Shown in pieces: positions 7,701-64,000 of a stretch of DNA of 64,000 nucleotides. Each line of letters starts with the position of its first letter. Within the stretch, counting starts at the first letter, position 1. The notes under the pieces are model-generated. The model worked only from the letters and a program-made list of their open reading frames with translations. It was not told the origin of the DNA and did not search any database. The DNA lies in NCBI RefSeq assembly GCF_018687715.1, contig NC_056752.1:39654501-39718500 (forward strand), in the 5' to 3' direction. Source of the DNA: Carya illinoinensis (lineage: Eukaryota > Streptophyta > Magnoliopsida > Fagales > Juglandaceae). The translations under genes and the position numbers were made by a program.

Positions 7701-8906
7701 GTGGGTCAACATAAAGCCCTTGAGTTGTTTCAGTTTTTGGCTACGAGGAAGGATGGTCAGGATATCCTAATTTGGATGAAGGATAATAATGGAAATTTTA
7801 GTACAAAAAGTGCTTGGGACTGTATTCGTGTGAAAGCTCCTTTGTTACCTTGGGCCCATTGGATTTGGCATACTCATGTTCCCAAGAAAATTTCTGTCAT
7901 GATGTGGAAGGCTTATCATAATTGTTTGAGTGTGGATGAGAAGATCAAGAGGATTGGAATTCCTATTGTATCTAAATGTAATTGCTGTGCTAGGGGACAT
8001 TTAGAGGATTTAAATCACGTTCTTTGTACTGGAGATTTTGCCAGACGTATGTGGCGGTTGGCAGCGACTCATTTAGGTGTCCATATGGGTGTTTTCCATA
8101 CTTGGAAGGAGCAAATTAATTTCTGGTTTCGTCGTGCTGGTAAGTCTTCTCAGTTAAGGATTATCTTTGGTATTCTCCCCTCTATTATTTCTTGGCAGCT
8201 TTGGAATAGACGTTGTAAAGCTCGGGTTGAGGATAAAGTGGATTCAGTTCAGTCAGTTTGGTATGTTGTTAAGTTGTGGATCCGGAGGATTATGCCTTTA
8301 TTTATGAAGGTTTCTAGGATTTCTAACCTTGATGTTGATATTCTGAAAAAGTTGGATATCCCGGTTTTATATCCTAAGCTCCGGCAACCTCGTGTGATCA
8401 GATGGAAGAGGCCACCTCAAGATTGGATGAAGCTTAATTCTGATGGTAGTAGCTTAGGGAACCCAGGACCAGCTGGTGCTGGAGGGGTTATTCGTGATAG
8501 TCTTGGTAGGATTCACTCAGCTTATTCGGTCTTTTTGGGTCATGGGTCTAATAATTACGCTGAGTTGAGAAGTTTGTTGGAAGGGGTTAGAAGGTGTCAC
8601 CAGTTTGGTTTCCGTCGGGTTGAGATTGAGATTGACTCTCAAATGATTGTCCGCTGGTGTACTAAGGGTCAGTGTACCATTTGGTACCTAGAGGATTTTT
8701 GGGAGGAATTGAGGGGTCTTTTGGGTTGTATGGAGTATCGCTTGAACCATGTGTTTCGTGAAGGTAATGCGGTGGCTGATTTTTTAGCCAAAATGGGAGC
8801 TGGGGGTTTAACTATGGATTGGTCTTTTAACGATACTCTACCTGAACAGCTTCGTGGTCTGCTTCGTTTGGACAGAATTGGTCTCCCTTATTTGCGTAAA
8901 GTGTAG
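4776..8906 (+). pseudogene. LINE ORF2: endonuclease-reverse transcriptase-RNase H, one premature stop
   Basis: One frame from ATG 4776 to TAG 8906 (1,376 codons) is interrupted only by TAG at 4974-4976, after 66 codons. Domains in order: an exonuclease-endonuclease-phosphatase fold (ILFWNIRGV near the start, then LLCGDFNIIREDS and SDHAPLV); reverse transcriptase (VKLDMSKAYDRVNW, LRQGDPLSPYLFV, and catalytic YADD at 6822-6833); a zinc-binding region (CNCCARGHLEDLNHVLC); and a C-terminal RNase H with SDGSS, AELR, EIDS and NAVADFLA carrying the four expected acidic residues. The protein would nick the target and copy the RNA onto it. The stop cuts the endonuclease in two; the downstream 1,309-codon part is entirely open. 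This copy probably cannot move by itself unless the stop is read through. Confidence 0.93.
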
Positions 8907-34904: not shown

Positions 34905-36006
34905 TATAAAATTCGATTTTCAGGTTTCTCCAGCGATTTTTTAATCGCCGTCAATAATTTTAAAAAACCATTTAATAGGATAGTTACAATACAAGAAAAT
35001 CCTATTGCAGCAATTAGTTACTCGCTGCCATATCATTTTTTAACAGTAAATTATTTGGCAGCGATTTTTAGTCGCTGCCAAATCATATAGCAGGGAGTTT
35101 TATATCGCCGCCATATGATTTTGATACAGAAAATGATATCTCGGCGATTCTGGAGTCGCTGCTAAATCCTATTGCAGCGATTTTAGTATCGCTGCCATAT
35201 TGTTTTGAAACAGGAAACATATATGGCAGCAATAGAAAAATCGCTGCCATATGATTTGGCAACGGTTTTTCTATCGCTGCCATATGCTTTTGAAATAGTT
35301 ATATCATATGGCAGCGATTAAGAAACGGTTGCCAAATAATATCGCAGCGACTTTTGTATCGCTGCCATATAGTTTCGCAATAGGAAAACTATATGACAGC
35401 GATTAAGAAACCGCTGCCAAATCATATGGCAGCGAGTTTAGTATCGCTGCCATATAGTTTCCATTTTACAAAATCATATGGCAGCGATTTTTGTATCGCT
35501 GCCATATGATATTCCTATTTCAAAAGCATATGGCAGCGATAGAAAAACTGCTGCCAAATAATATGGCAGCGATTAGAAAAGCGCTGCAAAATCATTTGCC
35601 AGTGATTTCTACATCGCTGCCATATGTTTTGGAACCATTGACAGTATATGGCAGCGACTACCGAATCGCTGGCAAATCATTTTGCAGCGATTTTGTAATC
35701 GCTGCTATATCATTTTGACACCAGGCCTTGATATTCCAGGGATTACAAAACCGCTGCCAAGATTTTTTAATCGCTGGAATAGAACTTTACGGTTTTTAAA
35801 CTATATGGCAACGATACAAAAATCGCTACGAAATATTGACTTTTCACAGCGATTTTTTTTGTTTCGTCGTGGTATATCTAAAGTGGAAGAATAGTACCGG
35901 CGAAGCTTCGGCGATTAGATAATCGCTGGCATAGGTATATAGCGGGGATTTATATGGTTTTTCTGGCGATTTTACGTCGCCGGGAAAAGCTCAATCTGTT
36001 GTAGTG
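34905..36006 (-). repeat. CACTA right terminus with 1.1-kb array of palindromes
   Basis: More than twenty half-sites of GGCAGCGAT / ATCGCTGCC alternate in opposite directions with 6-10 bases between them, each pair forming a potential hairpin. The roughly 25-30-base spacers are often themselves inverted repeats, for example ATATAGTTT...AAACTATAT around 35370-35400. The array ends TTTTACGTCGCCGGGAAAAG...TTGTAGTG at 36006. It is about six times longer than the left cluster. In En/Spm-type elements such motifs are binding sites for the TNP1/TNPA protein. Confidence 0.88.
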
Positions 36007-41658: not shown

Positions 41659-42726
41659 TCAGAACTGCTGGTTTACAAAAGATCGAAACTCCTCAGTCAA
41701 TGTCTCAACCTTATTGTTTAGCACATCTACATGATGTGCAAGATGTGTGACAGCCTGATCTATATGCGCAATCTATCTATCGATATGTTGATCTATATGC
41801 GCCTTCATATCTGTCATCACTGCATCAACCCAAGCAGGTTGCACATTCCCAGTAGATGTAACTCCCGGCTGCTGACTAGTACTCGCCGACGAGCTAGCAA
41901 CATCGGCCCCAGACTCGATCAGGGAAACAAGATCTGGCGTAGGACCAAACTGACGCTAAGCTGAGCCTCTCTCCTGTCCAATGCTCCGGTGGTGTGTGGT
42001 CATGTCGATGGGGCTCATCCGGTTTATCATCATCTCCTTCGCCTGGAGTGGCACTCCCCGGGCTAGTAATAAGCGGCTGATGATGACTCCGTACGGGAGA
42101 TTATCCGTGGTAACGATACTGGCCTCGTAACGGATCCGCTCAAATATAACGAGGGGCAAGTTAATGGGCTCACCACGTGCCTAGCGAATCAGGAACTGTG
42201 CACGAGCCCGACTGAATGTGCTCTTATGTGCCACCGGGTCTACATTTGTTGCAACAAAAATGTGCAACATGCGAAAGAAAGGCAGCAGCTGATTCTAGTT
42301 GAAGGAGTTAGGCCTATTGAGCCTCATGCAGTCCGTGCCAGTGAGGATGTAGAAATCCTGGTCCCGCTCATCATCACCAACCTCAGTAGCAATAGGATCG
42401 CCCTCGAGTCGATCTTCTTCATGACTAGGCATAAACTCAACAGGGCCTGAAGATGAAGCAAAAGCGGCTGGATCTGCCTCGAATATGCTCGGGGAAAATG
42501 CAGCTACTGTGTCACCAGCCTGAGCAGCTGTCGACTCAGGTAGTATACGCGGAATCTGGAGTAAGTCGACGATAACATCCGCCCAGAATTGACACTGTAC
42601 ACCGCTTAGTTCGAGGGTATGGGATGATGCATCGTTAGGCATGGTGGTCATCCCAATGTAAAACTCTCGAACCATTGAGGGGTAAATCTTTCCCCTCAAT
42701 GTGCATGTGGGGCCCCAGCCTCTGGT
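41659..42726 (-). pseudogene. PF20167-like transposon protein, 3' part
   Basis: This is the downstream part of a minus-strand gene whose first codons lie at 52002-52165, separated by the gypsy insertion. It reads YP.MVREFYIGMTT, then VQCQFWADVI, a polar linker, LLPFFRMLHIFVATNVDPVAHKST-type sequence and INLPLVIFERIRYEASIV, and ends in a coiled coil and TGA at 41659-41661. In-frame stops occur near 41780, at 41956-41958, near 42187 and at 42295-42297, all TAG. The homologue at 1681-2835 shares the DP..HK...RAR.FLIR block. The family occurs in plant transposons; its role is unknown. It is best seen as the protein carried by the CACTA-type unit starting at 39835. Confidence 0.65.
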
Positions 42727-44469
42727 TGTGACGCCCCCAAATCCCCATGCACGAACACGGGGAAATCGAGACGTCCGGATGATGACATCACGGGTCATCA
42801 TCCTATCGACGTGTGCCAAGTGTGTGAAAAAGCAACGAATGTGCACGAGAAATACGCAGCGAAAAGCAAGTCAATAACTAAGTACCAGAATTTTTCTTGT
42901 TTAATACAAAACTATTCAAAACATACATAAATAAATATTACAAGATACAAATATAGTTCAAAAGCCAAATACACAACATAAACCAACTCAGAACTCCGGC
43001 GGAGCTACATCCTCGGGCTCAGCCTCCTCATTCTCATCCTCGATCTCTGCACCAAAATCTACGGTACCAAAAATGGTGCCGCAGGTAAGTAAAATCCAAA
43101 TACTACTAGATAAAAACATATTAAACTCAACACTATGCATGAAATAAAAACCAGTGCACATACGCCATAAAACATGATTTTTATACGCACGCCAAAAACC
43201 CATTTGGCCTACAAAAACATATCCTTAAAACCAAGCCTCACCATTATCCCAAATAATGGCCCAAACCACTATTTTCCCAGAAAATATATCAAAAACCTCA
43301 GAAACCAAGCATCACCATTTTCCCAGAAAATGGCCCACATCTGGAAACCATAAAAAAAACAATCCGGTTATGCATGCACCATGATCTCCCCTAGGGATCA
43401 CCCGCATACCCTGGCTCTATGCCACACCGCAGGTAACGACTACGCATGTGACACCTAAACGAGCGATGCCTAGACTCGCGCCTCGCGCGTACCTGGCCAG
43501 GCCATCCTCTAGTCCCCGCCACTCTAGGGACCACGGAGTTGATACGACAGCGTTACCATATCGTGCGATCCGGTCGTTGCCCTACGACAACCCAGGGGAT
43601 GTCACTCAGTATTATCCACTCCCGAGTGACCGAAGGAGCTCCACCGAGATAATAACTCATCCCAGCTTGGGCTCGTGTAATACACGCACCCAAAAACCAT
43701 TTACGCCAATAAAACGGGATTTTCCCGATTAAAACAATATGCACATAAACACAATATGCAACTCACGCCCCATAGCACAAATAATCAAGCAAACACAAAC
43801 AAGCAAAACCAAGCACTCCGTCCTCAATCCATTCGACCCCCGAACTCCTCGGACTCAGTCCGGAATCAGCCAACCAACAACAATTAATTATTGAATGAGC
43901 AAAATATATTTAAATCTAAAAGTAGAGTTTGGAAAATACTTACAGCGCTATACGGTATTTTTAGAAAGCTTGTGGCGTTGCAAACGGCGGAAGGAAAGTA
44001 ACGTAACAGTGAAAATTCACTGTGGTCGTGAGTTGTAAAATACCCACTTTTGAACGGGGACAAACTAAGGCTTGATAGGGAATGGTCTAAGGATGATTAT
44101 GAAGCTAGTGGAAGTGAAGTTTGGCCGTGGGTGGCGGCGAAAACGGTGGTTGATGGCCGGATTTCCCAAAATGGAAAGCTAGCTCGTGGGAGCTGTTCCG
44201 GTGGCTATTAGAGGCCGGAAATGGGTGGGTTAGGACGGCAAGGAACCGGTGATAAAGTGGTGAAGAGGTGGTGGCCGGAGGTGGAGCGACAGCGGCGGAT
44301 CGGGGCAAAAACCGTGGGGCTTGTAGGGCGTTTTTCGACCAAACGGCTGGCCAGATGGGGCTGGGGTTCGGTGGGGTGGTGCGCCGGCAAGAGGGGGTTC
44401 GACCGGCGGGGGTGGTGTCGACCACGGTGGCCTGACGGCAGTGGGCCGGGCAGAGGTTGAAACCGGCAT

Positions 44470-44536
<67 letters not shown>

Positions 44537-44856
44537 GAACGGGGGGGAGAGGAAAAAGAAGAAGAAAAAAAAGAAAAGGAAAAAGAAAAAGGAAAGAAAA
44601 GAGAAAAAGAGAAAAAGGAAAAAAGGAAAAGAAAATATGTAGGAAAGAAATGAGGTCCAATCCTCACTCCGGAAAGCAAAACAAAACCGCCGAAAACGAG
44701 ATTAAAAATCGTAAAACGAATAAATAAATAAAACACAATATCCAACAAATAAAAACCAAATTTTAAAACGCAATAATTTAAAATAAATAAACCAATATAT
44801 TAAGTAAATTAAAAACAACCCTTCAGTGAAAATACACGCAAAAGCGGGTCATCACA
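42727..44856 (-). repeat. 3' LTR of the gypsy element
   Basis: Starts (plus strand) TGTGACGCCCCC and ends GCGGGTCATCACA. Contains a purine-rich tract with (GA)32 at 44472-44535 and GAAAAAG repeats to about 44640. Frames within it are artefacts of low complexity. Confidence 0.95.
44472..44535. repeat. (GA)n microsatellite in the LTR
   Basis: About 32 GA units. The matching position in the other LTR (51628-51717) has about 45, so the tract length has changed since insertion. Confidence 0.95.
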
Positions 44857-44870
44857 TCCTCCCCCCCTTA
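44857..44870 (-). other. Polypurine tract of the gypsy element
   Basis: The plus strand TCCTCCCCCCCTTA reads TAAGGGGGGGAGGA on the minus strand, directly before the 3' LTR start TGTGATGACC. It would prime plus-strand DNA synthesis. Confidence 0.85.
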
Positions 44871-44975
44871 AAACAAATTTCATCCTCGAAATTTGCAAGA
44901 TCAACCACCAACTTAAAGCAAGTCACATAAAATCACATAAACCATCTGTGACCAAGATTAAGATACGTACCTTCA

Positions 44976-47900
44976 TTACTCAAACAAGTATGGGTACTGC
45001 TCCCTCATGTCCGCTACTCGCTCCCAAGAGAAGTCTTGAGCTAACGGATCTCCCCACGCCACCTTAACCAAAGGTATCGTCTTGGACCTCAACTGTTGCT
45101 CATTCCAATCTATGATCTGCGACGGAACAACCTCATAAGTGAGATCCGGTTGCAACTGAATACCCTCTGGGTCGACGAAGCGTGGCTCTTGCTGTCCAAA
45201 GCTCTTCTTCAGGGATGATACGTGGAAGACATCATGAATATCCCCAAAATACTCTGGCAAAGCAACTCTATAGGCGACGGACCCTACCTTCTCCAGAATC
45301 TGAAAAGGACCGACATACCTTGGATCCAGTTTCCTCTTCTTACCAAAACGCTTAACACCTCTCATAGGAGAGACTTTGAGATAAACCCAATCACCTTCTT
45401 CAAAAGATAACTCTCTCCTCCTGGTGTCAGCGTAGCTTTTCTGAAGACTCTGAGCTGTCGCCATTTTATCCCTGATGATCCAAACTTGGCTTTGCATCTC
45501 TTGAATTATTTCGGGTCCAATTATCCTACTCTCCCTGACTTCATCCCAACACAAGGGCGATCTACACTTCCTCCCATAAAGAGCTTCATAGGGAGCCATC
45601 TGAATGGTCGCATGGAAGCTGTTATTATATGCAAACTCGATGAGCGGCAAATGGTTTTCCCAACTCCCTTGAAATTCCATGACACGCGCTCGCAACATGT
45701 CTTCAAGGGTCTGAATGGTGCGCTCCGATTGGCCGTCTGTCTGTGGGTGGTAAGCAGTACTGAACTTCAACTAAATACCCAAAGCTGCCTGCAAACTCTT
45801 CCAGAACTACGACGTAAACCTTGGGTCTCGATCCGATACTATACTCTTTGGTATACCATGCAGCCGCACTATCTCCTTAACATACAAGCGGGTCAACTTA
45901 CCCAAGGAATCGGTGTTATTAATAGGCAAGAAATGAGCACTTTTCGTTAACTGGTCAACAATCACCCAAACAGAATTTTTTCCACTAGGCGTTCTCGGCA
46001 AACCCACTACAAAGTCCATCGTGATGTCATCCCATTTCCACTCAGGAATAGGGAGGGGTTGGAGCATACCTGCAGGTCTTTGATGCTCGACCTTCACTTG
46101 ACGGCATGTGTGGCATTTCTCAACATATAAGGCAATATCCCTCTTCATTCCATCCCACCAATAATTTTTCTTTAAGTCCCGATACATCTTTGTACTGCCG
46201 GGATGAACTGAATAAGGGGCCACATGAGCTTCTGCCATGATCCACTCCTTGAATTCCGAATCTTTGGGGACCACTCTGCGATCTCGGAACCGAAGTATTC
46301 GATCTTTATCCATACCATAATGCAATGGCCCTCGAGATTTTTTGACCCTTTTTCTGATATTCGGCAGCTTTGGATCCTTCCTTTGCAGAGTCTTCAATTC
46401 TTCAAAATCAGTTACCCGAATATCAAGAACTGAAGATAAAATCTCTTCTCGCTGCGAACTCTCCATAAAGAGCCTTCTCATCCCACAAAGCAAAGAATCC
46501 AATTCTGACGGCTCGGCTTCATCTTCCAAGTGCGATTTTTGGCTCAAAGCATCAGCAACTATATTGGCCTTCCCCGGATGGTACTTGATCTCACACTGGT
46601 AGTCACTGATTAGCTATAGCCATCGCCTCTGCCTCATGTTCAGATTTTTCTGGGAAAACAAATGCTTCTAGCTCTTGTGATCAGTGTATACCTCGCATGC
46701 TTCCCCATACAAAAAGTGCCGCCAGATCTTGAGTGTAAAAACAATAGCAGCCAATTCCAAATCGTGCGTCAGATAATTTTTCTCATGATCCTTTAGCTGA
46801 CGAGATGCATAGGCAACAACCCGTCCTTCCTGCATAAGGACACAACCCAAACCAAACTTAGATGCATCACTGAAGACTACGAATGGCTTATACAGTTCTG
46901 AAAGCGCTAACACTGGTGCCGTCATCAACCTGTTCTTTAATTCTTGGAAGCTTCTCTCACACTTATCTGACCAAACAAATTATGTATTCTTCCGAGTCAA
47001 AGCTGTGAGAGGTCCAGATAAGCGAGCAAATCCCTCCACAAATCTTCGGTAATAACCAGCAAGCCCCAAGAAACTCCGGATCTCGCGCACTGTAGTCAGA
47101 CGCGGCCATGACAAAATGGCTTCCACCTTACTAGGATCAACAGCCACTCCGTCTCGGGAAATCACATGCCCAAGAAATCTGACTTCCTCCAGCCAGAATT
47201 CACACTTGCTAAGCTTGGCATATAGCTGGTGTTCTCTCAATTTCCCAAGTACCAGACGAAGATGATACACATGTTCTTCAACATCTCGGGAATAAATCAG
47301 AATATCATCAATAAACACTACCACAAAGGAATCCAGATAAGGTTGAAATACTCGATTCATTAAATTCATGAAAGCAGCAGGGGCATTAGCTAACTCAAAC
47401 GGCATCACCTTAAATTCATAATGCCCATACCTCAACCTGAAAGCAGTTTTAGGCACATCCTTGTCTCTGATCCTCAGCTGGTAGTATCCCAACCTCAAAT
47501 CAATCTTCGAGAACACGGCTGCTCCTTGAAGCTAATCAAATAAATCGTCGATCCACGGGAGAGGATATTTATTTTTGATGATCACCTTGTCAAATTCCCG
47601 ATAATCTATGCACATACGGAGGGTTCCATCTTTCTTTTTAACGAACAACACTGGCGCACCCCACGGCGAAGTACTAAGCTGAATAAATCCCTTATCTACC
47701 AGCTCTTGCAACTGAGTCTTCAACTCTTTTAATTCAGCTGGTGCCATGCGATAAGGAGCTTTATGTACAGGAGCCGCTCCAGGTTCCAAGTCTATAACAA
47801 ACTCCATTTCCCGAACAGAGGGTAGTCCGGGCAAGTCATCCACAAACACATCGGGGAATTCTTCCACAACTGGAATGTCTACCAAAGACTTCTTCTCAGA

Positions 47901-49601
47901 CGGCGTGGACACCATCTGAACTAAGAATGCATCCGCTCCCCATGCAATCTCTCTTCTTGCTTGAATTGCCAATATAATTACTGGCTTTTCTTTTAACTTA
48001 CTCCCCGCAAATTCCAGACAATCACCATCTGGAAGCTGAAAAGTAATTACCCGACTTCTGCAATTAATACTCGCAGAATATCGGTATAGCCAATCCATCC
48101 CGAGGATGATATCAAAACCCAACAGCTTAAACACAACCAAATCAGCATCCAAGAACCTTCCATCAAAATTTAACGGGCATCCCAACCCAACCGTGGAGCA
48201 CCATACCATTTCACCATCGAGTAAAGCCACCACCAATGACTTTGGCAAAGGTTCCGTGACCAAATTACACATCCGCGCAAACGTGGAAGATACAAATGAC
48301 TGTGAAGCACCGGAATCAAACAAAGTGCAAGCATAAAACTCATACAAACGGACTCTTCCTGTAATTACTCCAGCATCATGGGTCGCTGGTGCCTCATCAT
48401 CCACATCTCCGGGTGTGACAGCATAAACCCGGGCTTGCACTGCTTGCCTTGGATTTGTTCTTCCACCGCGTCTACCTCCACGGCTTCCTTGAGCTGTTCT
48501 TGGACATTCTCAGGCAAAGTGACCCTGCTGGCCACAATTATAACATCGAGCCCCACCAAAAGGGCACTCACCCACATGGGCTCTATTACAAACTCCGCAA
48601 ACAGGCACACGTCCTCCCATGCAAACACCTGAGGATGCTTGCGGTCGAGTTCCAGTCCACTGAACAAATTTCTGAGGCGAACCCGACCTGCTTCCTTCAC
48701 CAGAAAAACTCTGTCTCTTATGACCCCGAGGGGAGCCCATACTCAGATTATTCTCTCGTTCCACAAGGGTGGCCACATCCACTAATTTCTAAAAAGTGGA
48801 TATCCGATGGCTGACCACCATACGGCGTATATCAGGGCGTAGTCCCTCCTGAAAACGCTCAGCTCGCATCTCCTCTGTGGCGATAAGGTGGGGAGCAAAT
48901 CGCCCAAGTTCTATAAACCTTCGGGCATACTGTTCCCCTGTCATGCCTCCTTGGACCAAATTTGAGAACTCTCTTGCCTTTTGCTACCTTACCGATGCGG
49001 GAAAGAAGCGGTCGTTAATTTCTTTCTTGAAGCGCTGCCAGGTTACAGTGGCGAATGAACCCAACTCTGCTTCTAACATCACCCTCTTGGTATGCCACCA
49101 ATCAAAAGCGGTGCCTTGCAACAGATAGCTGGCGTAGAGTACCTGTTGCGCCTCGGTGCAACCACATACCTCAAAAGTTCTTTCCAGGTCTTTGATCCAC
49201 TTTCCAGTTTGAAGCGGATCCTCTTCTCTAGTGAAGTGTGGGGTCCTATGCGCCAGAAAGCGCTCATAGGTACATCCGGCTTGCACCATGCTGCTAGATC
49301 CTCCCGGGTAAATCCAAGGACCTCCCTGATATGGCCAAGGACCTCCAGGTTGTGGCCAAAGTCCTTCTTGTTGCGGACAAGGCCCTCCTTGTGGCGGCCA
49401 GGGACCCCCTTGTTGTGGCCAAGGTCCCCCTGGTTGTGGCCAAGGCCCTGTCTGCTGTGGCCTAAAATTTTGCTGCATAAACTCCGTCATCTGCCGTATG
49501 GCTTGGGCTATGAAGTCATCTCTTGACGTATTGTCCCGTGGCTCCTGAGTAGATTTCTTTGGCCTCCCCATTTTCCTACCACCACAACCTTTGACCCCCA
49601 T
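44976..49601 (-). pseudogene. gypsy gag-pol polyprotein with nine in-frame stops
   Basis: One minus-strand frame runs from ATG at 49599-49601 (MGVKGCGGRKMGRPKKS) to TAA at 44976-44978 with no frameshift. Order: Gag with a Gln/Pro/Gly-Trp repeat region (GGPWP.QGGPWP) and a CYNCGQQGH zinc knuckle; aspartic protease ([12 protein letters not shown]); reverse transcriptase (MCIDYRE, catalytic FIDD at 47304-47315, with GLANAP changed to ELANAP); RNase H ([14 protein letters not shown]); integrase with an HHCC zinc finger (CHTCRQVK) and catalytic segments ([25 protein letters not shown]); and a C-terminal chromodomain (W..V.M). Stops: 48984-48986, 48789-48791, 48510-48512, 47532-47534, 46980-46982, 46668-46670, 46614-46616, 45807-45809 and 45771-45773. 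gag and protease are continuous, without the intron found in the copy at 61236. Confidence 0.95.
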
Positions 49602-49857
49602 TCAGAAAATAAAAACAAATAAAACCAACAACAAACAAAAACAGAACCAAAGACTAACACCACATCACATAACACAAAAGAAACCAACTTGCAAAAACAT
49701 AACTAAATAAATAAAAACAAACAAACAAGTTCAAACAAATAAAACAAATAAAAAAATTTAAATAACTTTACTTAACATAATTTTTTTAAAACACAATCTA
49801 AAAAAAAACATTCTGGTACTACCTACGGGACATGTGGTTTTTACCCAGAGCCAAACC

Positions 49858-49869
49858 GCTCTGATACCA
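49858..49869 (-). other. Primer binding site, initiator Met-tRNA
   Basis: The plus strand GCTCTGATACCA reads TGGTATCAGAGC on the minus strand, two bases after the 5' LTR. This is the usual plant tRNA-iMet complement. Confidence 0.95.
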
Positions 49870-49871
49870 CC

Positions 49872-51623
49872 TGTGACGCCCCCAAATCCCCACGCACGAA
49901 CACGGGAAAATCGAGACGTCCAGATGATGACATCACGGGTCATCATCCTATCAATGTGTGCCAAGTGTGTAAAAAAGCGACGAATGTGCACGAGAAATAC
50001 GCAGCAAAAAGCAAGTCAATAACTAAGTACCAGAATTTTTCTTGCTTAATACAAAGCTATTCAAAACATACATAAATAAATATTACAAGACACAAATATA
50101 GTTCAAAAGCCAAATACACAACATAAACCAACTCAGAACTCCGGCGGAGCCGCATCCTCGGGCTCAACCTCCTCCTCCTCATCCTCGATCTCTGCACCAA
50201 AATCTACGGTACCAAAAATGGTGCCGCGGGTAAGTAAAATCTAAATACTACTAGATAAAAACATATTAAACTCAACACTATGCATGAAATAAAAACCAGT
50301 TCACATGCACCATAAAACATGATTTTTATACGCACGCCAAAAACCCATTTAGCCCACAAAAACATATCCTTAAAACCAAGCCCCACCATTATCCCAGATA
50401 ATGGCCCAAACCACCATTTTCCCAGAAAATGGATCAAAAACCTCGAAAACCAAGCATCGCCATTTTCCCAAAAAATGGCCCACATCCGAAAGCCATAAAA
50501 AAAACAATCCGGTTATGCATGCACCATGATCTCCCCTAGGGATCACCCGCATACCCTGACTCTGTGCCACACCGCAGGTAATGACTACGCATGTGACACC
50601 TAAACGAGCGATGCCCAGACTCGCGCCTCGCGCGTACCTGGCCATGCCATCCTCTAGTCCCCGCCACTCTAGGGACCACGGACTCGACACGACAGCATTA
50701 CCGTATCGTGCGATCTGGTCGTCGCCCTGCGACAACCCAGGGGATGTCACTCAGTATTATCCACTCCCGAGTGACCGGAGGAGCTCCACCGAGATAATAA
50801 CCCATCCCAGCTTGGGCTCGTGTAACACACGCACCCAAAAACCATTTACGCCAATAAAATGAGATTTTCCCGATTAAAACAATATGCACATAAACACAAT
50901 ATGCAACTCACGTCCCATAGCACAAATAATCAAGCAAACACAAACAAGCAAAACCAAGCACTCCGTCCTCAATCCATCCGACCCCCGAACTCCTCGGACT
51001 CAGTCCGGAATCAGCCAACCAACAACAATTAATTATTGAATGAGAAAAATATATTTAAATCTAAAAGTAGAGTTTGGAAAATACTTACAGCGCTATACGG
51101 TATTTTTAGAAAGCTTGCGGCGTTGCAAACGGCGGAAGGAAAGCAACGTAACAGTGAAAATTCACTGTGGTCGTGGGTTGTAAAATACCCACTTTTGAAT
51201 GGGGACAAACCAAGACTTGGGATTGATAGGGAAGGGTCTAAGGATGATTATGAAGCTAGTGGAAGTGAAGTTTGGCCGTGGGTGGCGGCGAAAATGGTGG
51301 TTGATGGCCGGATTTCCCAAAATGGAAAGCTAGCTCGTGGGAGCTGTTCCGGTGGCTATTAGAGGCTGGAAATGGGTGGGTTAGGATGGCAAGGAACCGG
51401 TGATGAAGTGGTGAAGAGGTGGTGGTCGGAGGTGGAGCGACGGTGGCGGATCGGGGCAAAAATCGTGGGGCTTGTAGGGCGTTTTCCGGCCAAACGGCTG
51501 GCCGGATGGGGCTGGGGTTCGGTGGGGGGTGCGCCGGCAGGAGGGGGTTTGACCGGCGGGGGTGGTGTCGACTACGGTGGCCGAACGGCAGTGGGTCGGG
51601 GCGAAGGTTGAAACTGGCGTGGG

Positions 51624-51718
<95 letters not shown>

Positions 51719-52001
51719 GAACGGGGGGAGAGGAGGAAAAAGAAGAAGAAAAAAAAAAAGGAAAAAGAAAAAGGAAAGAAAAGAGAAAAAGAGAAAAAGG
51801 AAAAAGGGAAAAGAAAAGATGTAGGAAAGAAATGAGGTCCAATCCTCACTCCGGAAAGCAAAACAAAACCGCCGAAAACGAGATTAAAAACCGTAAAACG
51901 AATAAATAAATAAAACACAACATCCAACAAATAAAAACCAAATTTTAAAACGCAATAATTTAAAATAAAAACCAAATTTTAAAACGCAACAAATCATCAC
52001 A
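49872..52001 (-). repeat. 5' LTR of the gypsy element
   Basis: Same length as the 3' LTR. In the last 60 bases it has a block (AAATAAAAACCAAATTTTAAAACGCAAC) that replaces the CACGCAAAAGCGGG part of the other LTR, so the two LTR starts differ locally. Confidence 0.93.
51628..51717. repeat. (GA)n microsatellite in the LTR
   Basis: About 45 GA units; homologous to 44472-44535. Confidence 0.95.
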
Positions 52002-52165
52002 CTGGTGACGAAGACGTCTCTCAGCGTCTTCTGCTCCCAGCTGAGCTCATCAAACTCATTAATGAGGATTTCTCGTTCCCCCATAACAGTTCGTGCCCCC
52101 AGTTGAGCATTGTCTGGATTGCCTCCATCCCTCCCTCGATTCCTTGTCGTCATATACTGAGCCAT
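52002..52165 (-). pseudogene. PF20167-like transposon protein, 5' part
   Basis: Starts at ATG 52163-52165 (MAQYMTTRNRGRDGGN) and is open to the gypsy insertion at 52002-52006, where the CTGGT duplication lies. The frame then continues into 41659-42726. The element therefore landed inside a coding frame and split it. Confidence 0.7.
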
Positions 52166-55176: not shown

Positions 55177-57304
55177 CTATAAGAATTCTCGGGATAGAAA
55201 ATCAGGAAGAGAATTAGAATCTCCTTTAATATGCTCAATATCAAAATCAAAAATACTTAAAAAAGCTTGCCATCTTGCAAAAATTTGTATAGCAGCCAAG
55301 TTTTTAACATCTTTTACTAAAACTTTCATGGCTGATTTACAATCAATTCTAAGTAAAAACTTTTGATTCAAAAGATCATCTTGAAATTTTTAAATGCATA
55401 ATATAATAGCTAAAATTTCTTTTTTAATAGTACTGTAATTCTTTTGAGTAGGATTCCAGCATCCTGAATGGAATCGAATAATCTGTTCTTTTTCATCTGA
55501 TAATTTTTGTTTCAAAATTCCTCCATAACTAAGATCAGAGACATCTGTTTCAACAATTTTAAAGGCATCAAGAGATGGGAGTCCTAAGCATGGTAATTTC
55601 TTAACATGAGCCTTTATTTGTTTTATAATATTTGTATGTTCCTCTGTCCATGGAGGTGGATTCTTTTTTAATCTTTTGAATAATGGTTCACATAAAGGTC
55701 TAAGTGCTTGATAAAAATCAGCAACATAATTTAAACTTCCTAGAAATCTTTGTAGTTGTTGCTTATCCTTTATTTCATTAAGGAATTTATTAGCAAATTC
55801 TATAGCCCTACTTATTGGGGTAATAGTTCCTTGATAAATATCATGTCCAAGGAATCTAATCTTGTTTTGGAATAATTTAACTTTAGATGATAAAACTACT
55901 AATCCATTTTGTTTAATGATTTGAATAAAAGTATTTAAATATTTCCAATGTTGTTCAATTGATGAAGAGAATATTAATAGATCATCTATATAAACTATAG
56001 AAAAATGAGTGAAGGGTGTAAATATTTCATTTATAAAATTTTGAAATTCACTAGAAGCATTTTTTAATCCGAAAGGCATAACATTCCATTCAAAATGTCC
56101 AAAAGGGACTGTAAATGCAGTTTTGTATCTATCTTTTTCAGCAATCTGGATTTGTCAAAATCCACTTTTCATATCAAATTTTGAAAATATAGTAGCAGCA
56201 TAAAGTCGAGATAGTAAATCTTTTTTACTAAGAATAGGGTATCTAATCCATTGTAAAACTTTGTTTAAAGGCTTATAATTTATAACTAATCTAGGAACAC
56301 CTCTTTCTAATTCTGCTTGTTTTTTTACATAAATTAAAAGCAGCACAACTTCATGGTGATTTGCTCTTTCTAATAAGTCTTTTAGCTAATAAACCATTAA
56401 TTTCTTGTTTACAGAATTCTAATAATTCTTTATTCATTTGAATGAGTTTGGCCTTAGTAGGAATATTCTTTTCAGAAAATTCTTTTTCATAAAGTAATTC
56501 GACTATATGTTATTTTCTACTCCAAAAAGCATTAGGTAAATTAGAACATACTTCCTTTTCAATTATATTTTTAAAATTATTAATTTTTTGGATTAATAAA
56601 GGATCTTTTAATTGTTCTTCAATTCTTTTGTATTTTAATTCTTGTTTTAAGAAATTTTTTTTTTCTTTTCTTTTGATTTTAACTTTTGTTAAAAAATTAA
56701 TTTCTTTAGTTAATGAGGCTTCTTTTAAGGAATTAATCTCTCTTGAGATTGGAGGGAATAAAAATTTAAATTGAATTTCTTTTCCTAATACTTTAGTAGA
56801 AATTCCTTCTTCTGTTACAGATAAATGGTAAAGTAAAGTAAGAAATAGGTTTCCTAATATTACTTTGGTGATGATGTTTTTTACTAGAATGAATGTTGTT
56901 TTAAAACAAATTCCACTATTACATATATGTGCATTTGATAATTTATAATTTATGTTTAATTTTGCTCCATTAGCTTGAGATAATGTCTCTTTTGTTTTTT
57001 CAAAATATTTAGAGGGTATTATTCCTTCTTGTATGCAGTTTAGATCTGCACCTGTATCTAATAAAACTATTGCAGAAAAAGAGAATTCTTCATTAATGGA
57101 AATAGTTACTTCAGTATACCATTTTTGAAAATTCATCTTATTAAGTATGTTTATAAAATTATCTGATTCTTTTTTTGTAATTTTTACTGAGCTTTCTCCT
57201 TGTTCTTTTTTAGGAGTGTCATTATTTTTATCTATTTTTAATAGTATAATTTCTTGTAATAATTGTTCATTAGAAACTTCAAGTTTGGTGTTAGAGGCTT
57301 TCAA
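55177..57304 (-). pseudogene. Pararetroviral protease, reverse transcriptase and RNase H, broken
   Basis: 57304-56510 contains the aspartic protease signature LLDTGAD and a Lys/Glu/Ile-rich remainder. 56346-56155 holds the start of the reverse transcriptase (VINYKPLNKVL). 56079-55390 holds the core, with FGLKNAS and catalytic YIDD at 55981-55992, then IRFLGHDI and LQRFLGSLNY of the connection, and an RNase H start (ETDVSDLSYGGIL). 55371-55177 ends the RNase H (RIDCKSAMKVL, SLPDFLSRE). Breaks: stop near 56510, a shift near 56350-56510, a stop at about 56152-56154 and a stop at 55390-55392. A stop-interrupted linker (57305-57655) joins this to the coat-like frame. In caulimovirids this protein copies the pregenomic RNA into DNA; this copy cannot be expressed as one chain. 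Confidence 0.85.
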
Positions 57305-57655
57305 ATTTCAAATTTCTTTCTTTATTTCATTAATTTCTTGATGTAAATCCTTTAAAGTAATATTTTGTTTTTCTGATTGAAATCTATTTACTATTTCTAG
57401 AAAATCATATGATGAGGGGGTTGAATTGGGTTCAAAAGTTTTGGGATTACTAAAAGTATCTTTTAATTTTTCTAAATATTCTTTTCTTTCTTGTGGATTA
57501 TTAATTTTATCTATTAATTCTAATATAATATTTTAATGTGACGATAATACATTAATAGTTTTATTACATATACAATTATTTTTAATTAGACAATTACAAA
57601 CATGAATTTCATCTTCTTCTGACTCGTTATCAGAAAATTGTTCTGAAAAACTTGA

Positions 57656-58949
57656 TTATTTTAATTGATAAATTTCGTCTTCTTCTGAAGAATTTTCATC
57701 TTCTTCACTTGATTGTATAAAGATATTTAGTAATTTTTCTTTTACTTCTTCAGGTATATCTAATTCATTAATTTCTTTTTTAACCTTACAATTTGATGCA
57801 TAATGTTCAACCTTTCCACATTTATAACATACAATTTGTTTTTTCTTTTTATTAAACTTTTTTCTATTCTTTACTGGTTTCTTATCTACGGGTTTTTCAT
57901 TGGATTTTTTATAGGGTTTTTTATAATTTCTTTTCTTAGTTAGATAAGTTTTATAAATTCTTTTTCCTTTTTTATGTCTTGTAGAATGAGCTAATAATGG
58001 AGAATAACCAAACTGTTCACAAAAGGTATCTAATTCTTTTGTAGCAAATTTTTTTTCTTTTTCCATTTGTTTTTTTAATCTTATATCATTACACATAATC
58101 AGGCCAGTTCTATTAAGAGAAGATATTATATCTTCATATGTAAGATTAATAAAATCAATAGTACCATCTGATTTTACTAAAGATTCACGTACCTTTTGGG
58201 CGAAGTAATATGGAAGTCCGGCTATGAACTTTTCCTTCCAGTATGGTTGTTGGCAATCATCTCTGATCATAACTTTAGTTAGAAAGACATCTTTATACCA
58301 TCTAAAATCAGATAATCTAGGACATCTTAAATTGATTAATAAATCACTAGTTCTTTCTTTAAATTGGAAAGAATCACCTACAAAATGTTTTGTTAATATA
58401 AATATTAGAGTATTAACAACATCTTCTATAAGTTGACCATCTTCTGTCTTAATCTCTTGCATATTTTCATCATGCTTATAAGCACTTAATATTCTTATTC
58501 TTTGTTCTTGTGTAAGATAATGATCCCACCAGCCTTTTAATTGGCCAGTGAATCCTGTAACTAGAACGTGTGCTACTTGATGATCTGACCTCCTACTGGC
58601 TTTATAAACATTAACTACCATAATCATTTCTTGAAAATGATTTAATATTTCATATTCAGATAATCCATCTATATTACATTCATATAATGCATCTGATGCA
58701 AAAGCAAATCTCACTATATGTTCTCTTTCCTCGAATTGTAAATCCGAATGGGTAGGCCTTGGATACCAATTACGAATAGTAGAAGTATGCCTTGCAGATT
58801 CCCTAGGATAAAATTCCCTACTATGACTTCCTTTAATTTTGTTTATCTGTAATTCTTTGAATTGATTTTCAATATTATTAATTTCAGAATAAGATAGATC
58901 AGGTGAATCTGTCTTACTTAATACATTAATATGAGATTGTCTTGAAGTG
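57656..58949 (-). pseudogene. Coat/gag-like protein with zinc knuckle, 5' end cut by the gypsy insertion
   Basis: The frame is open from the gypsy edge (58949) to TAA at 57656-57658, about 430 codons, without an internal stop. Features: a GFTGQLKGWWDHYLT segment, a helical middle, a Lys-rich basic run (roughly 57850-57980), then a C-x2-C-x4-H-x4-C knuckle (CYKCGKVEHYASNC) and a Glu/Asp/Ser-rich acidic C-terminus. Basic run, knuckle and acidic tail follow the caulimovirid coat-protein pattern; LTR-element Gag is the alternative. The start codon is not in the window because the gypsy LTR replaces upstream sequence. Confidence 0.65.
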
Positions 58950-60962
58950 TGTGATGACCCGCTTTTAAGTGTATTTTCGCTGAAATAATTGTTTTTATTT
59001 TAATTAATATATCAAATATTTTATTTTATTTTAATTGCATTTTTAAAGTCGGTTTTTAATTTATTTTAATTTATTTGAGGTTGTGTTTTATTTCTTTTAG
59101 TTGTTTTTGTGGTTTTTATCTTTTTGGCGGTTTGTTTCTTTTTCCCGGAGTGAGGACTGGACCTCATTTCTTTTCACATCTTTTTTCTTTTTCTCTTTTT
59201 CCTTTTTCTTTTTCCCTTCTTTTCTTTTTTCTTCTTTTTCTTTTCTCTCTCCTCTCTCCCGCTCGACCCGGTCACCCCCCCCCGTGCTCTCTCTCTCTTC
59301 TCTCTCTCTCCCTACGCCGGCGTCACCTTCCCTAAGCCCTACCGCCGCCGTCCGGCCACCGTTCGGCCTCCCACCGGTCCCATTCTCTTCCTCTCCTTCC
59401 GGTCTACCTTCCCTCCAAAACCCACCCCCAACCGGCCGGCCATTTGGCCGGAAAAAGCTTCCAAAGGGCGCACGGATTTTGCTCCGATCCGCCGCCGTCG
59501 CTCCACCTCCGGCCACCATTTCTTCACCACTTCATCATCGACTCCTTGCCGTCCTAACCCACCTATTTCCGGCCTCCAACGACCACCGGAACAGCTCCTA
59601 CGAGCTTAGTTTCCGTTTTGGGTAATCCGGCCATTTCCGGCCATTCCGCCGCCACCCACGGCCGTCCGTCACTTCCAATAGCTTCACAACCACCTCTAGA
59701 CCATTCCCTATCAATTTCGTGACCTAGTTTGTCCCCGTTCAAAAGTGGGTTTTTCGGACCCACGGCCACAGTGAATTTTCACTGTGACGTTGCTGTTTTT
59801 CCGCCGTTTGCAACGCCTCGTGTTTTCTAAAATTGCCGTATAGCGCTGTAAGTATTTTCCAAACCCTATTTTCAGATTTAAATATATATTGCTCATTCAA
59901 TTTATTTATTATCTGTTGTTGGTTGTTGATTCCGGACTGAGTCCGAGGAGTTTCGGGGGTCGGATGGATGGAGGATGGAGTTGCTTGATTATTTGATTTA
60001 TGTGATTGGATCTTTTTTATGTGCTTTGTTATGGCATTACATGATGCATGCACGTGTGTTGTGGGTTTATGAGAAAAGCCTGTGTTTTGGCGTGAGTGTG
60101 TCGCGGGTGCGTGGGTATCACGAGCCCAAGCCGGGATGGGTTATTATCTCGGTGGAGCTCCTCTGGTCACTCGGGAGCGGAATAAACTGAGTGATGTCCC
60201 CTGAGTTATCGAAAGCGATAATGGGAGCGGGACTAGGGGGTGCTTGGCTACGAACGCGCCGGGCGCGGAACCGGGCATCGGCCTACTCACCGACTCCGTG
60301 GCCCTTCGCTGGCGAGGGCTAGAGGATGCTTGGCTACGCACGCGCGGGGCGCGGAACTGGGCATCGCTCGTTGGGTGTCACATGCGTGGCGGTACTCTGC
60401 GGTGTGACACTGGAGCCAGGGTGTGCGGATGACCCCTAGGGGAGGTCATGGTGCATACGGTTAAAATTGGATAATGGTTTGAGATGTCAAATGTGTCTTT
60501 TGGCGTGCGTGGAAAACTTGTGTTTTACGGGTTTGTGCATTGGGCATGTTTCATGCATCTTGTTTGAGTTATATGTGTTTTTATCTGGTAGTGTTTGGGT
60601 TTTACTTACCTGCGGAACCATTTGTGGTTCCGTAGCTTTTGGTGCAGGAGTTGAGGAGGAGGAGGAAGAGGCTGAGCCCGAGGATGCGGCTCCGCCGGGT
60701 TGCTGATGTTATCTTTTTATTTGTTTAAAACTGCATTTGTGTTTTGTAATATTTTATCTATGTATGTCTTAAACAGCTTGTATTACGTTAAGAAAAATTC
60801 TGGTACTTAGTTATGACTTTCTTATCCGCTGCGTGTCTCTCTGTACACAATTGCTGCCTTGCACACACTCGGCACCCGTCGATGGGATGGTGACCCGGGG
60901 TGTCACCATCCGGACGTCTCAATTTCCCCGTGTTCGGGCGTGGGGATTTTGGGGGCGTCACA
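58950..60962 (+). repeat. 5' LTR of the second gypsy copy
   Basis: Starts TGTGATGACCCGC and ends GGGGGCGTCACA, the same ends as the other family LTR in reverse. It is 2,013 bases. It has a shorter CT-rich tract (about 59279-59312) than the GA runs of the sister LTRs. Open frames inside (for example 59101-59625) are low-complexity artefacts. Confidence 0.93.
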
Positions 60963-60964
60963 GG

Positions 60965-60976
60965 TGGTATCAGAGC
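60965..60976 (+). other. Primer binding site, initiator Met-tRNA
   Basis: TGGTATCAGAGC, two bases after the LTR, complementary to the 3' end of tRNA-iMet. Confidence 0.95.
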
Positions 60977-61235
60977 GGTTTGGCTCTGGGTAAAACCACA
61001 AGTCCCGTAGGTAGTACCAGAATGTTTTTAAAGTTGTGTTTTAAAATTATGTTAAGTATAGTTGTTTTATTTGTTTTATTTGTTTATGTTTGTTTGCTTG
61101 TTTTATTTAGTTATGTTTTGGCATGCTGGTTCCTTTTATTTCTCGCTGCGTGGTGCTGTTTTTGTTTTGTTGGTTTTATGATGGTTTTTGTTTGTTTTCT
61201 TAAAGGAGGGTCAAGAGTGGTGTTGTGACAGAATT

Positions 61236-62489
61236 ATGGGGAGACCAGGTAGACCAAGGAAAAATACTCAGGAACCGCAAGACAATACATCCAGGGATGA
61301 CTCCATAGCCGAAGCAATTCGGCAGATGACGGAGTTCATGCAACAGAATATTAGGCCACAACAGGCAGGGCCTTGGCCACCACAAGGACCTTGGCCACCA
61401 TCAGGAGGGCCTTATCCACCATCAGGAGGGCCCTATCCACCGTCAGGAGAGCCTTGTCCGCCACAGGGAATGTATTGGCCACAACCAGGAGGTCCCTGGC
61501 CATATCAGGGAGGGCCTTGGATGTATCAAGGAGGGTCCAGTAGCATGGTGCAAGCTGGGTGCACCTATGAGCGCTTCTTGGCGCATAGGACTCCACACTT
61601 CAATGGGAATGAGGATCCACTTCAGGCTGGGAAATGGATCAAAGATTTGGAGAAGACTTTTGAGGTGAGTGGGTGCACTGAAGCACAACAAGTACTCTAT
61701 GCCAGCTACCTCTTACAAGGTATCGCTTCTGATTGGTGGGATACCAGGAGGGTGATGTTGGAAGCTGAACTGGGATCTTTCGCTGCGGTGACCTGGCAGC
61801 GTTTCAAGAAGGAATTCAATGACCGCTTCTTTCCCGCATCGGTAAGGAAGCAAAAGGCAAGAGAGTTCTCCAATCTGGTCCAAGGGGGCGCAACAGTGGA
61901 ACAATACGCCCGGAGGTTCATAGAACTTGAGCGGTTTGCTCCTCATCTTGTTGCCACAGAGGAGCTGCGAGCTGAGCGTTTTCAGGAGGGACTACGCCCT
62001 GATATACGCCGATTGGTGGTCAGCCATCGGATATCCACTTTTCAGGAGTTAGTGGATGTGGCCACCCTTATAGAGCGGGAAAATAATCTGTGTATGGGAT
62101 CCCCTTCAGGGCAAAAGAGGCGGAGTTTTTCTGGTGAAGGAAGCAGCTCGGGTTCGCCTCAGAAGTTTGTTCAGCGGACTGGAACCCGATCTCAAGCATC
62201 CTCCAGTGTTCGCATGGGAGGACGTATGCCTGTTTGTGGGGTTTGTAATAGAGCTCATGAGGGCGAGTGTCGCACGAGTAGCGGACCCCAGTGTTATCGG
62301 TGCGGTCAAGTGGGACATATAGTTCGGGATTGCCCCGTTAGAGCTCAAGGAAGCCGTGGAGGTAGACACGGTGGAAGAACCAACCCGAGACAAGCAGTGC
62401 AAGCCCGGGTTTATGCTGTCACGCCCGGAGAGGTGGACGATGAGGCACCAGCGACCCATGATGCTGGAGTAATCACAGGTATGGATTAA
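61236..62489 (+). CDS. gypsy Gag (unspliced reading, stop inside intron)
   Basis: I choose the ATG at 61236 (MGRPGRPRKNTQ), matching the sister copy's MGRPKKSTQ; the frame extends to 61188 without support. It encodes 417 residues: a basic start, a Pro/Gly/Trp-rich repeat region (GGPYPPSGGPYPP), the Retrotrans_gag core (ASYLLQGIASDWWDTRR, FNDRFFPASVR, FQEGLRPDIRRLV), and a CYRCGQVGHIVRDCP zinc knuckle (C-x2-C-x4-H-x4-C). Read without splicing, the frame enters the intron at 62479 and stops at TAA 62487-62489. With splicing it continues into protease and polymerase at 62578. No stop breaks the Gag, while the sister has three in the same region. Confidence 0.93.
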   Translation: MGRPGRPRKNTQEPQDNTSRDDSIAEAIRQMTEFMQQNIRPQQAGPWPPQGPWPPSGGPYPPSGGPYPPSGEPCPPQGMYWPQPGGPWPYQGGPWMYQGGSSSMVQAGCTYERFLAHRTPHFNGNEDPLQAGKWIKDLEKTFEVSGCTEAQQVLYASYLLQGIASDWWDTRRVMLEAELGSFAAVTWQRFKKEFNDRFFPASVRKQKAREFSNLVQGGATVEQYARRFIELERFAPHLVATEELRAERFQEGLRPDIRRLVVSHRISTFQELVDVATLIERENNLCMGSPSGQKRRSFSGEGSSSGSPQKFVQRTGTRSQASSSVRMGGRMPVCGVCNRAHEGECRTSSGPQCYRCGQVGHIVRDCPVRAQGSRGGRHGGRTNPRQAVQARVYAVTPGEVDDEAPATHDAGVITGMD

Positions 62490-62577
62490 TTTAATCTTTT
62501 AAGTTGGATTTATTTTTGGTATATTTGGTTTCTTCGTTGTTTTTTTTTGGATTTCATGGGTTGTGTGTTTGGTTCAG
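62479..62577 (+). other. Probable 99-bp spliceosomal intron at the gag-protease junction
   Basis: Starts GTATGG and ends TTTGGTTCAG. It is strongly T-rich with a nine-T run, as plant introns are, between GC-richer exons. Removing it gives ATCACAG|GAAGAGTCC, exactly the uninterrupted sequence of the sister copy on the minus strand near 48358. Length 99 keeps the frame number, but the intron holds an in-frame TAA at 62487-62489. Confidence 0.85.
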
Positions 62578-64000
62578 GAAGAGTCCGTTTGTATGAGTTT
62601 TATGCTTGTACCTTGTTTGATTCTGGTGCTTCACGATCGTTTGTGTCTTCCACATTTGCTCGGGTGTGTAACTTGGTCACGGAACCGTTGCCGAAGGCTA
62701 TGGTAGTGGCGCTGCCCGACGGCGAGATGGTGTGGTGTTCCAAGGTTGCTTTGGGATGCCCGTTAAATTTTGAGGGAAGATTTTTGGATGCCGATCTGGT
62801 GGTATTCAAGCTGTTGGGTTTTGATATCATCCTCGGGATGGATTGGCTATACCGATATTCTGCGACTATTAATTGCAGAAGTCGGACGATTAGCTTTCAG
62901 CTTCTGGATGGTGATTGTCTGGAATTTGCAGGGAGTAGATTAAAAGAAAAGCCGATGATTATATCGGCGATACAGGCAAGAAGAGAGATTGCATGGGGAG
63001 CGGATGCATTCTTGGTTCAGATGGTGTCCACGCCGTCTGAGAAGAAGTCCTTGGCAGACATTCCAGTTGTGGAAGAGTTCCCCGATGTGTTTGTGGATGA
63101 CTTGCCCGGACTACCCCCCGTGCGAGAGATGGAGTTTGTTATAGACTTGGAACCTGGAGCGGCTCCTGTGCATAAGGCTCCTTACCGCATGGCACCGGCT
63201 GAATTGAAAGAGTTGAAGACTCAGTTGCAAGAATTAGTAGAGAAGGGGTTTATTCAGCCTAGTACGTCGCCGTGGGGTGCACCAGTTTTATTTGTTAAAA
63301 AGAAAGATGGAACCCTTCGTATGTGCATTGACTATAGGGAGTTGAACAAGGTGACCATCAAAAATAAATACCCTCTCCCGCGGATTGATGACTTGTTTGA
63401 CCAACTTCAGGGGGCAGCGGTGTTCTCTAAAATTGATCTGAGGTCGGGATACTACCAGCTGAGAATCAGAGAGCAGGATGTGCCGAAAACTGCCTTCAGG
63501 TCGAGGTATGGACACTATGAATTTAAAGTGATGCCGTTTGGGCTAGCTAATGCTCCTGCCGCTTTCATGGATTTAATGAATCGGGTGTTCCAACCTTATC
63601 TGGATTCCTTCGTGGTAGTATTTATTGATGATATACTGATTTATTCCCGAGATATTGAAGAGCATGTGTATCATCTTAGTCTGGTACTTGAGAAATTGAG
63701 AGAGCACCAGTTGTATGCCAAGCTCAGCAAGTGTGAGTTCTGGTTGGAAGAAGTTAAATTTCTTGGGCATGTAATTTCCCAGGGTGGGGTGGCAGTTGAT
63801 CCCAGTAAGGTAGAAGCCATTTTGTCATGGCCACGCCCAACTACAGTACGCGAGATCAGGAGTTTCTTGGGGCTCGCCGGTTACTACCGAAGGTTTGTTG
63901 AGGGTTTTGCTCGCTTATCCGGACCTCTCACAGCTTTGACTCGGAAGAATACAGAATTTGTTTGGTCAGAGAAATGTGAGAGAAGCTTCCAGGAATTGAA
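62578..64000 (+). CDS. gypsy Pol: protease, reverse transcriptase, start of RNase H region (partial)
   Basis: Continues Gag after splicing, in the same frame, and stays open to the window end. Features: protease [12 protein letters not shown] near 62620; the template region [13 protein letters not shown]; reverse transcriptase with [33 protein letters not shown] and catalytic FIDD at 63621-63632; then FLGHVIS, the tether [10 protein letters not shown] and [11 protein letters not shown]. The RNase H domain starts beyond 64000. All reverse transcriptase motifs are intact, including GLANAP, which is altered in the sister. Produced only if the 62479-62577 intron is removed or bypassed. Confidence 0.93.

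Follow-up and report, generated by a model that had tools for sequence, protein, structure and literature searches.

The window analysed here is a 64,000-nt stretch of the pecan (Carya illinoinensis) genome, positions 39,654,501 to 39,718,500 of the forward strand of NC_056752.1, in which we examined two related long terminal repeat (LTR) retrotransposons of the Ty3/gypsy type. The first, hereafter copy 1, lies on the plus strand, starts at position 58950 and has its 3′ end beyond the window. A 5-bp target-site duplication (TSD), AAGTG (58945..58949), precedes it and a second AAGTG stands immediately past its 3′ end, outside the window. Its 5′ LTR (TGTGATGACC...GGGCGTCACA; 58950..60962) is followed by the primer binding site TGGTATCAGAGC (60965..60976), which we take to match the initiator Met tRNA, and by a gag exon (61236..62478) that runs from the ATG at 61236 to ACA G, ending in phase 1. 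A 99-base insert (62479..62577) then separates gag from a pol exon coding for protease and reverse transcriptase (62578..64000, running on beyond the window). The end of pol and about half of the 3′ LTR have apparently been deleted from copy 1. Since the 972 bp left of the 3′ LTR match the 5′ LTR at 100% identity, this copy must be very young. The second element, the sister (42727..52001, minus strand; row L039 in the trees described below), is full-length and intronless, is mutated and carries stop codons, and is flanked by the TSD ACCAG (42722-42726 and 52002-52006); its LTRs are 93.7% identical across their aligned part.

Pfam searches placed Retrotrans_gag, Ty3_capsid and a CCHC zinc knuckle 5′ of the insert in copy 1 and retroviral protease and reverse transcriptase 3′ of it, and the closest protein matches of this region come from Carya and Juglans. 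Together with the integrase zinc-binding and SH3_Tf2-1 domains of the sister, the LTRs and the 5-bp TSDs, these domains are those of a Ty3/gypsy element. The sister pol ends in QIIDWNEQQLRSKTIPLVKVAWGDPL..FSWE, which we take to be Tekay-like. The chromovirus label applied in the preliminary description of this DNA is backed by the architecture of the element only; no Pfam chromodomain was found after the integrase of the sister pol at E values up to 10.

As that description had stated, the 99 bases, with GTATGG...TTCAG ends, lie exactly between ATCACAG on the 5′ side and GAAGAGTCC on the 3′ side. The gag frame meets a TAA at 62487-62489, eight bases inside the insert, and joining about 60 nt from each flank without the insert gives one frame identical to that of the sister, so that both the early stop and the continuous Gag-Pol frame described previously were recovered. 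Besides the GTATGG donor, the insert carries a branch-like TTCAT at -22 and the acceptor GGTTCAG. Its T content is 57%, against 14% in the 100 nt upstream and 43% in the 100 nt downstream, and 99-nt windows of flanking coding DNA reach a maximum of 43% T. No flank repeat was found at the insert ends apart from the three bases CAG, i.e. there is no TSD. GT-AG ends, a U-rich body and an exact exon-exon product (the junction is found in 88 places, see below) are, at the DNA level, the features of a U2-type spliceosomal intron, and by these signals the 99 bases behave as a real spliceosomal intron at the gag/protease boundary. Its position is not that of the Ogre/Tat intron, between protease and reverse transcriptase: the LFDSGAS motif and the RVP_2 domain lie 3′ of it. 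Nor does it correspond to the shGAG arrangement of Ty1/copia elements: Gag and the other domains are of gypsy type, the short splice opens pol, and only the distal splice discussed below would be Gag-only.

Genome-wide, the donor pattern has 1,316 matching places and that of the spliced junction 88 (at most 3 mismatches in each case), while neither reversed-pattern control has any; since the two patterns are unlike in length and wildcards, the 1,316:88 ratio is approximate. When 40 of the 1,658 candidates for a 301-base query around the insert were scored, all 40 spanned the entire query at 98-100%. Judged by these counts, the intron is the norm for the family, and a recent gain in copy 1, which had been considered earlier, is unsupported. 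The gag of the pecan protein P0066 gave 150 scored matches, 13 of which continue across the junction to residue 100 and are all within the 88-place junction list; this figure is a lower bound, at least one further intronless place of the list (C8:16610753) matching only to residue 95. Some copies stand head to tail at a spacing of 7.1-7.3 kb, about one internal part plus one LTR (C2:885476/892697/899918, C12:14082655/14089920, C5:16780957/16788090 and C15:20197577/20204851), and are probably tandem elements with shared LTRs. In a search for related DNA in viral contigs, three stretches matched a pattern and none was confirmed.

The sister had been reported to read straight through the corresponding point, and it does: ATTACAG is followed directly by GAAGAGTCC at the junction 48359/48358 (minus strand), the donor GT is gone and exactly the 99 intron bases are missing. 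The downstream exon of the sister, queried together with the last three exon 1 bases, which intron and exon have in common, gave 40 best matches that include the sister itself; of these, 34 have the intron, five the exact junction and one an imprecise deletion. Thirty-two of these matches were read, three were previously characterised intron-bearing loci and five were assigned by coordinates to the junction list; the 32 that were read comprise the single deletion and 31 introns (one with a dead donor, two with a GTGTGG donor and one with a changed exon end). That the junctions are exact, with a rare imprecise exception, points to spliced RNA as the template of reverse transcription. The sister has the appearance of a copy descended from such an RNA, an origin already put forward in the preliminary description, and its nearest rows by path are intron-bearing in both the upstream-exon and the downstream-exon tree.

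These trees were built from 67 copies, namely 30 intronless loci, the first 30 listed donor places, six of the eight loci from the 301-base search and copy 1; L007 (= L076) and L002 (= copy 1) were excluded, and two rows with short flanks were dropped upstream. At least 14 changes of intron state are needed on the downstream-exon tree (67 sequences) and at least 12 on the upstream-exon tree (65 sequences), and at least seven in each tree are forced by branches with SH-aLRT ≥95. A nested clade of intronless copies, for which a check had been proposed, was not recovered: these copies are scattered, and the approximately unbiased (AU) test rejects a single clade (p 3e-55 and 2e-6). Identical haplotypes are common to intronless and intron-bearing copies, five upstream (40 nt) and five downstream (60 nt). 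Precise loss through the copying of spliced RNA, either repeated or spread by recombination, fits these data best. The opposite polarity, in which a transposon-like insertion hit the gag-pol region of a single copy, the ancestral state surviving in the sister, is scarcely credible. The distant plant gypsy proteins P0028, P0035 and P0057 do read through the junction point, so that a deep ancestor was probably intronless, but the number of donor places, the lack of a TSD, the mostly intron-bearing nearest relatives of the sister and the AU result all speak against it, and the genome-wide matches rule out a single-copy event, including the random insertion that the preliminary description had named as its refutation.

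Recombination among copies has also taken place, since three of them (L037, L038 and L051) are placed differently in the upstream and downstream trees, and some of the intronless scatter may be due to it. The precise loss could then have occurred once or a few times, the intronless junction being spread afterwards by template switching or gene conversion. The disagreement of the two trees for some copies favours such a course; against it, the local haplotypes of the intronless L039, L040, L045 and L046 on either side are also those of different groups of intron-bearing copies, and we consider spread from few losses plausible at somewhat below even odds.

The insert evolves as an intron would: with gaps counted, it diverges from that of copy 1 at 1.7% of sites, against 0.6% for the exons (28 aligned rows, 27 places), and both splice dinucleotides are kept in all 28 aligned rows. 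Intron lengths in the 27 copies are 98 (14 copies), 99 (10), 100 (2) and 103 (1), 17 of the 27 not being a multiple of three; these 27 places are those of the 40 scored places of the 301-base search that entered the divergence and length counts, copy 1 included. In an overlapping set of 37 intron-bearing copies, lengths range from 83 to 104 and 19 are not a multiple of three. Donors in that set were mostly selected by pattern, so their conservation is uninformative; acceptors were not, and the acceptor AG is kept in 35 of the 37. These lengths bear on a reading in which the insert codes for an in-frame linker and Gag-Pol is made by suppressing the TAA. Although the insert of copy 1 is divisible by three and has a single in-frame stop, frame-breaking lengths in about half or more of the copies, despite strong selection on pol, rule out readthrough as the general route to Pol, and the intronless copies lack exactly the GT..AG segment; we regard this reading as very improbable.

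For pol, the comparison of copy 1 with intron-bearing copies gave a mean dN of 0.0173 and dS of 0.2701, i.e. a dN/dS of 0.06 (30 of 36 copies, those of equal length), and within a 13-row clade in which all rows bear the intron dN was 0.0023 and dS 0.065 (11 comparisons). Pol is thus under strong purifying selection among intron-bearing copies. Because the length of roughly every second intron disrupts the frame, and that of copy 1 has a stop in frame, pol must have been reached through splicing in the lineages exposed to selection, unless other copies supply it. Open frames of more than 1,500 residues in 15 intronless places were dropped as evidence, L044 and L061 being in conflict with stops in the DNA, and L044 also with the P0066 matches.

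A second, distal 3′ splice site, in phase with the gag donor, is predicted in the LTRs. In the 5′ LTR of copy 1 an acceptor CCGTAG (60630-60635, plus strand), with a branch-like CTTAC at -28, precedes a mini-exon coding for AFGAGVEEEEEEAEPEDAAPPGC and ending in a stop (60636-60706). The sister has corresponding mini-exons in its 3′ LTR (42988..43058, minus strand; DFGAEIEDENEEAEPEDVAPPEF and a stop) and in its 5′ LTR (50133..50203, minus strand; DFGAEIEDEEEEVEPEDAAPPEF and a stop), so that all three LTRs in the window have CCGTAG followed by an acidic-type tail in the correct phase and a stop. A distal splice would use the copy of the acceptor in the 3′ LTR.

Listed proteins fit both splices. 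In the gag proteins P0003 and P0013 of pecan and P0007 of walnut the match ends at the donor and is followed by short acidic tails. More specifically, at C15 the gag exon of the NCBI-listed P0013 has 31695835 as its last base, with GTATGG following, and the first base of the tail DFDADVEEEKEVEPEF is 31701327, directly behind GGTACCGTAG; the predicted distal intron (C15:31695836-31701326, 5,491 nt) thus ends in a CCGTAG acceptor within LTR-like sequence and agrees base for base, part of the stretch between the two exons having been read (L168, L169). This locus has the short intron as well, so that two acceptors would compete for one donor. A search with the P0003 tail gave matches limited to P0003, P0013 and, weakly, P0042. 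In P0034, which belongs to a more distant subfamily, gag is joined to pol, and the genome has a short intron exactly there. The gag exon of P0066 (C5:1275689-1275973, minus strand) ends at the donor with a short intron behind it; in the protein, the donor is followed by an unrelated 92-residue C-terminal part whose exon was not located. Lastly, the walnut protein P0020 leaves gag at the donor for a PBL5-like kinase.

The LTR acceptor motif occurs at 9,405 places genome-wide against 14 for the control. In a sample of other LTRs (40 of 100 listed places, all on the plus strand and with 0 mismatches), the 22- or 23-codon frame of the mini-exon is intact in 35 of 40. Across the 34 distinct sequences among these 35 frames, pN/pS is 0.41 (95% CI 0.27-0.67) when read in the predicted frame, whereas the other two give 1.06 and 0.78. 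Weighed with the codon-position counts and the second open frame described below, the coding signal of the mini-exon is of moderate strength.

Overall, we propose, with a probability of roughly 0.7, that the retained spliceosomal intron is an expression switch in which one gag donor has two competing acceptors and three outputs. The 5′ splice site at 62479 would serve both the proximal and the distal 3′ splice site. Unspliced RNA, with its stop eight bases into the intron, would give plain Gag and would also be the genome from which most new insertions are made, as the presence of the intron in young copies indicates. The short splice would fuse gag to protease, reverse transcriptase and integrase to give Gag-Pol, and this spliced RNA would occasionally be reverse transcribed to found intronless lineages such as that of the sister. 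The long splice to CCGTAG in the 3′ LTR would remove the whole of pol and give Gag with an acidic tail of 22-23 residues. The preliminary description had proposed a Gag/Gag-Pol switch; its intron does behave as a real one, but the distal LTR acceptor was overlooked, and the likely number of outputs is three. The production of all three RNAs, their ratio and a function of the tail are what we infer from the sequence. Splice choice might be controlled by nuclear retention of the unspliced RNA, by analogy with EVD (PMC8892269). The fuller picture, a Tekay-like gypsy family of well over a thousand copies with a two-acceptor donor, an acid-tailed Gag, an LTR holding a selected terminal exon and an intron kept despite repeated precise loss, seems to us slightly better than an even bet.

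Several observations weigh against the two-acceptor switch. Intronless lineages have multiplied, the GAAGAGTTCG variant of the junction being found at 19 places at one mismatch, and seven of 30 intronless copies are free of stops in the examined 1.2 kb of gag and 1.4 kb of pol, as are nine of 37 intron-bearing ones, which implies that the switch is dispensable. The acceptor is broken in two of the 37 intron-bearing copies. The dN/dS of pol against intronless copies is also 0.06 (23 of 30 copies), so that deep branches alone could carry the selection signal, and recombination could have carried a few losses into many backgrounds. The pN/pS sample was selected for intact frames, the codon-position counts of the mini-exon have no third-position excess, and a second frame of the mini-exon is open in 33 of 34 sequences. 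A search of the genome for retrocopies of the gag-to-LTR junction found none, its six pattern matches (at most 2 mismatches, against three for the control) all lacking a nearby gag, and the gene models behind the listed proteins may be partly ab initio. Those that concern the mini-exon and the distal junction would be accommodated if the short intron alone matters, with constitutive or partial splicing giving Gag-Pol, the gag-to-LTR models being annotation artefacts and the LTR mini-ORF being kept for some other reason, for instance RNA processing or DNA signals; gene models can indeed link distant exons to close a frame. Such a reading sits poorly with three proteins from pecan and walnut in which gag gives way at one common point to a tail of one kind, with a donor, acceptor and tail at C15 that agree to the base, and with a reduced pN/pS in the predicted frame only, and we therefore hold it to be unlikely, yet a serious competitor to the two-acceptor switch.

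The rice centromeric element CRR is a chromovirus. It resembles the pecan element as a gypsy element with spliced transcripts (PMC3735527), and BARE1, copia and Bagy2 are listed with it as spliced elements in that source. Plant LTR elements are described as generally intronless, Ogre and EVADE being exceptions (PMC12786077), and the chromoviruses of Beta have gag and pol in a single continuous frame (PMC3605345). In Ogre, a Tat element of the Ty3/gypsy superfamily, an intron is spliced from a subset of transcripts and decides whether the whole polyprotein is produced (PMC6317226). The pecan intron would be alike in controlling a polyprotein in a plant gypsy element, but it lies 5′ of protease, at the end of gag, and Ogre is a non-chromovirus. 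In barley BARE1, whose intron has a CAG/GTAT donor as in pecan, and for the shGAG of Arabidopsis EVD, splicing separates Gag-only from Gag-Pol RNAs (PMC3735527, PMC8892269); both belong to the Ty1/copia superfamily, and splicing there gives Gag-only, whereas the short splice in pecan would give Gag-Pol. A parallel to the predicted distal splice is Drosophila copia, in which a 2.9 kb splice takes out pol to give a Gag mRNA (PMC3735527), although the predicted pecan acceptor, like its terminal exon, is part of the LTR, and a proximal acceptor is available to the same donor. Short GAG isoforms produced via splicing are described for two expressed sunflower elements (PMC7730604). In the open-licence literature, where subscription papers are mostly absent, we found neither an intron at the gag/protease boundary of a chromovirus nor a precedent for one donor with a protease acceptor and an LTR acceptor.

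Other features of the window were noted in passing. Between the primer site and gag of copy 1, positions 61007-61205 (plus strand) are T-rich, start with a donor-like GTAG and end in CTTAAAG, which by eye could be a second intron, in the leader. In the LTR, a short frame at 60136-60204 (plus strand), MGYYLGGAPLVTRERNKLSDVP when translated by eye, resembles the start of P0022 (walnut) and P0042 (pecan) and may be another exon. Just upstream of copy 1, on the minus strand, 55390-58714 looks like the remnant of an endogenous plant pararetrovirus: of the ORFs there, one (57656-58714) has a caulimovirus coat domain, DUF7746 and a zinc knuckle, and another (56510-57304) a retroviral protease. A LINE-type element occupies 3298-8906 (plus strand), with a DUF4283 ORF followed by reverse transcriptase, zf-RVT and RNase H within a 1,309-codon frame, and pieces of a CACTA-type transposase (Transpos_assoc, Transposase_21) lie at 24492-26691 (plus strand). 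Nested direct repeats were found at 19494-19993 and 35131-35727, the latter also holding many inverted pairs.

Retroelements usually serve to demonstrate that passage through RNA removes introns. The pecan element, young and abundant, retains one, and both states are found in a single genome, which makes it possible to count losses via spliced RNA. Should RNA data bear out the proposed splices, they would explain how one plant gypsy family, at least, produces more Gag than Pol despite an otherwise continuous gag-pol frame, and the LTR would double as a coding exon. In P0066 and P0020 the gag donor is apparently joined to sequence from outside the element, which may offer a route to new fusions of gag with host genes.
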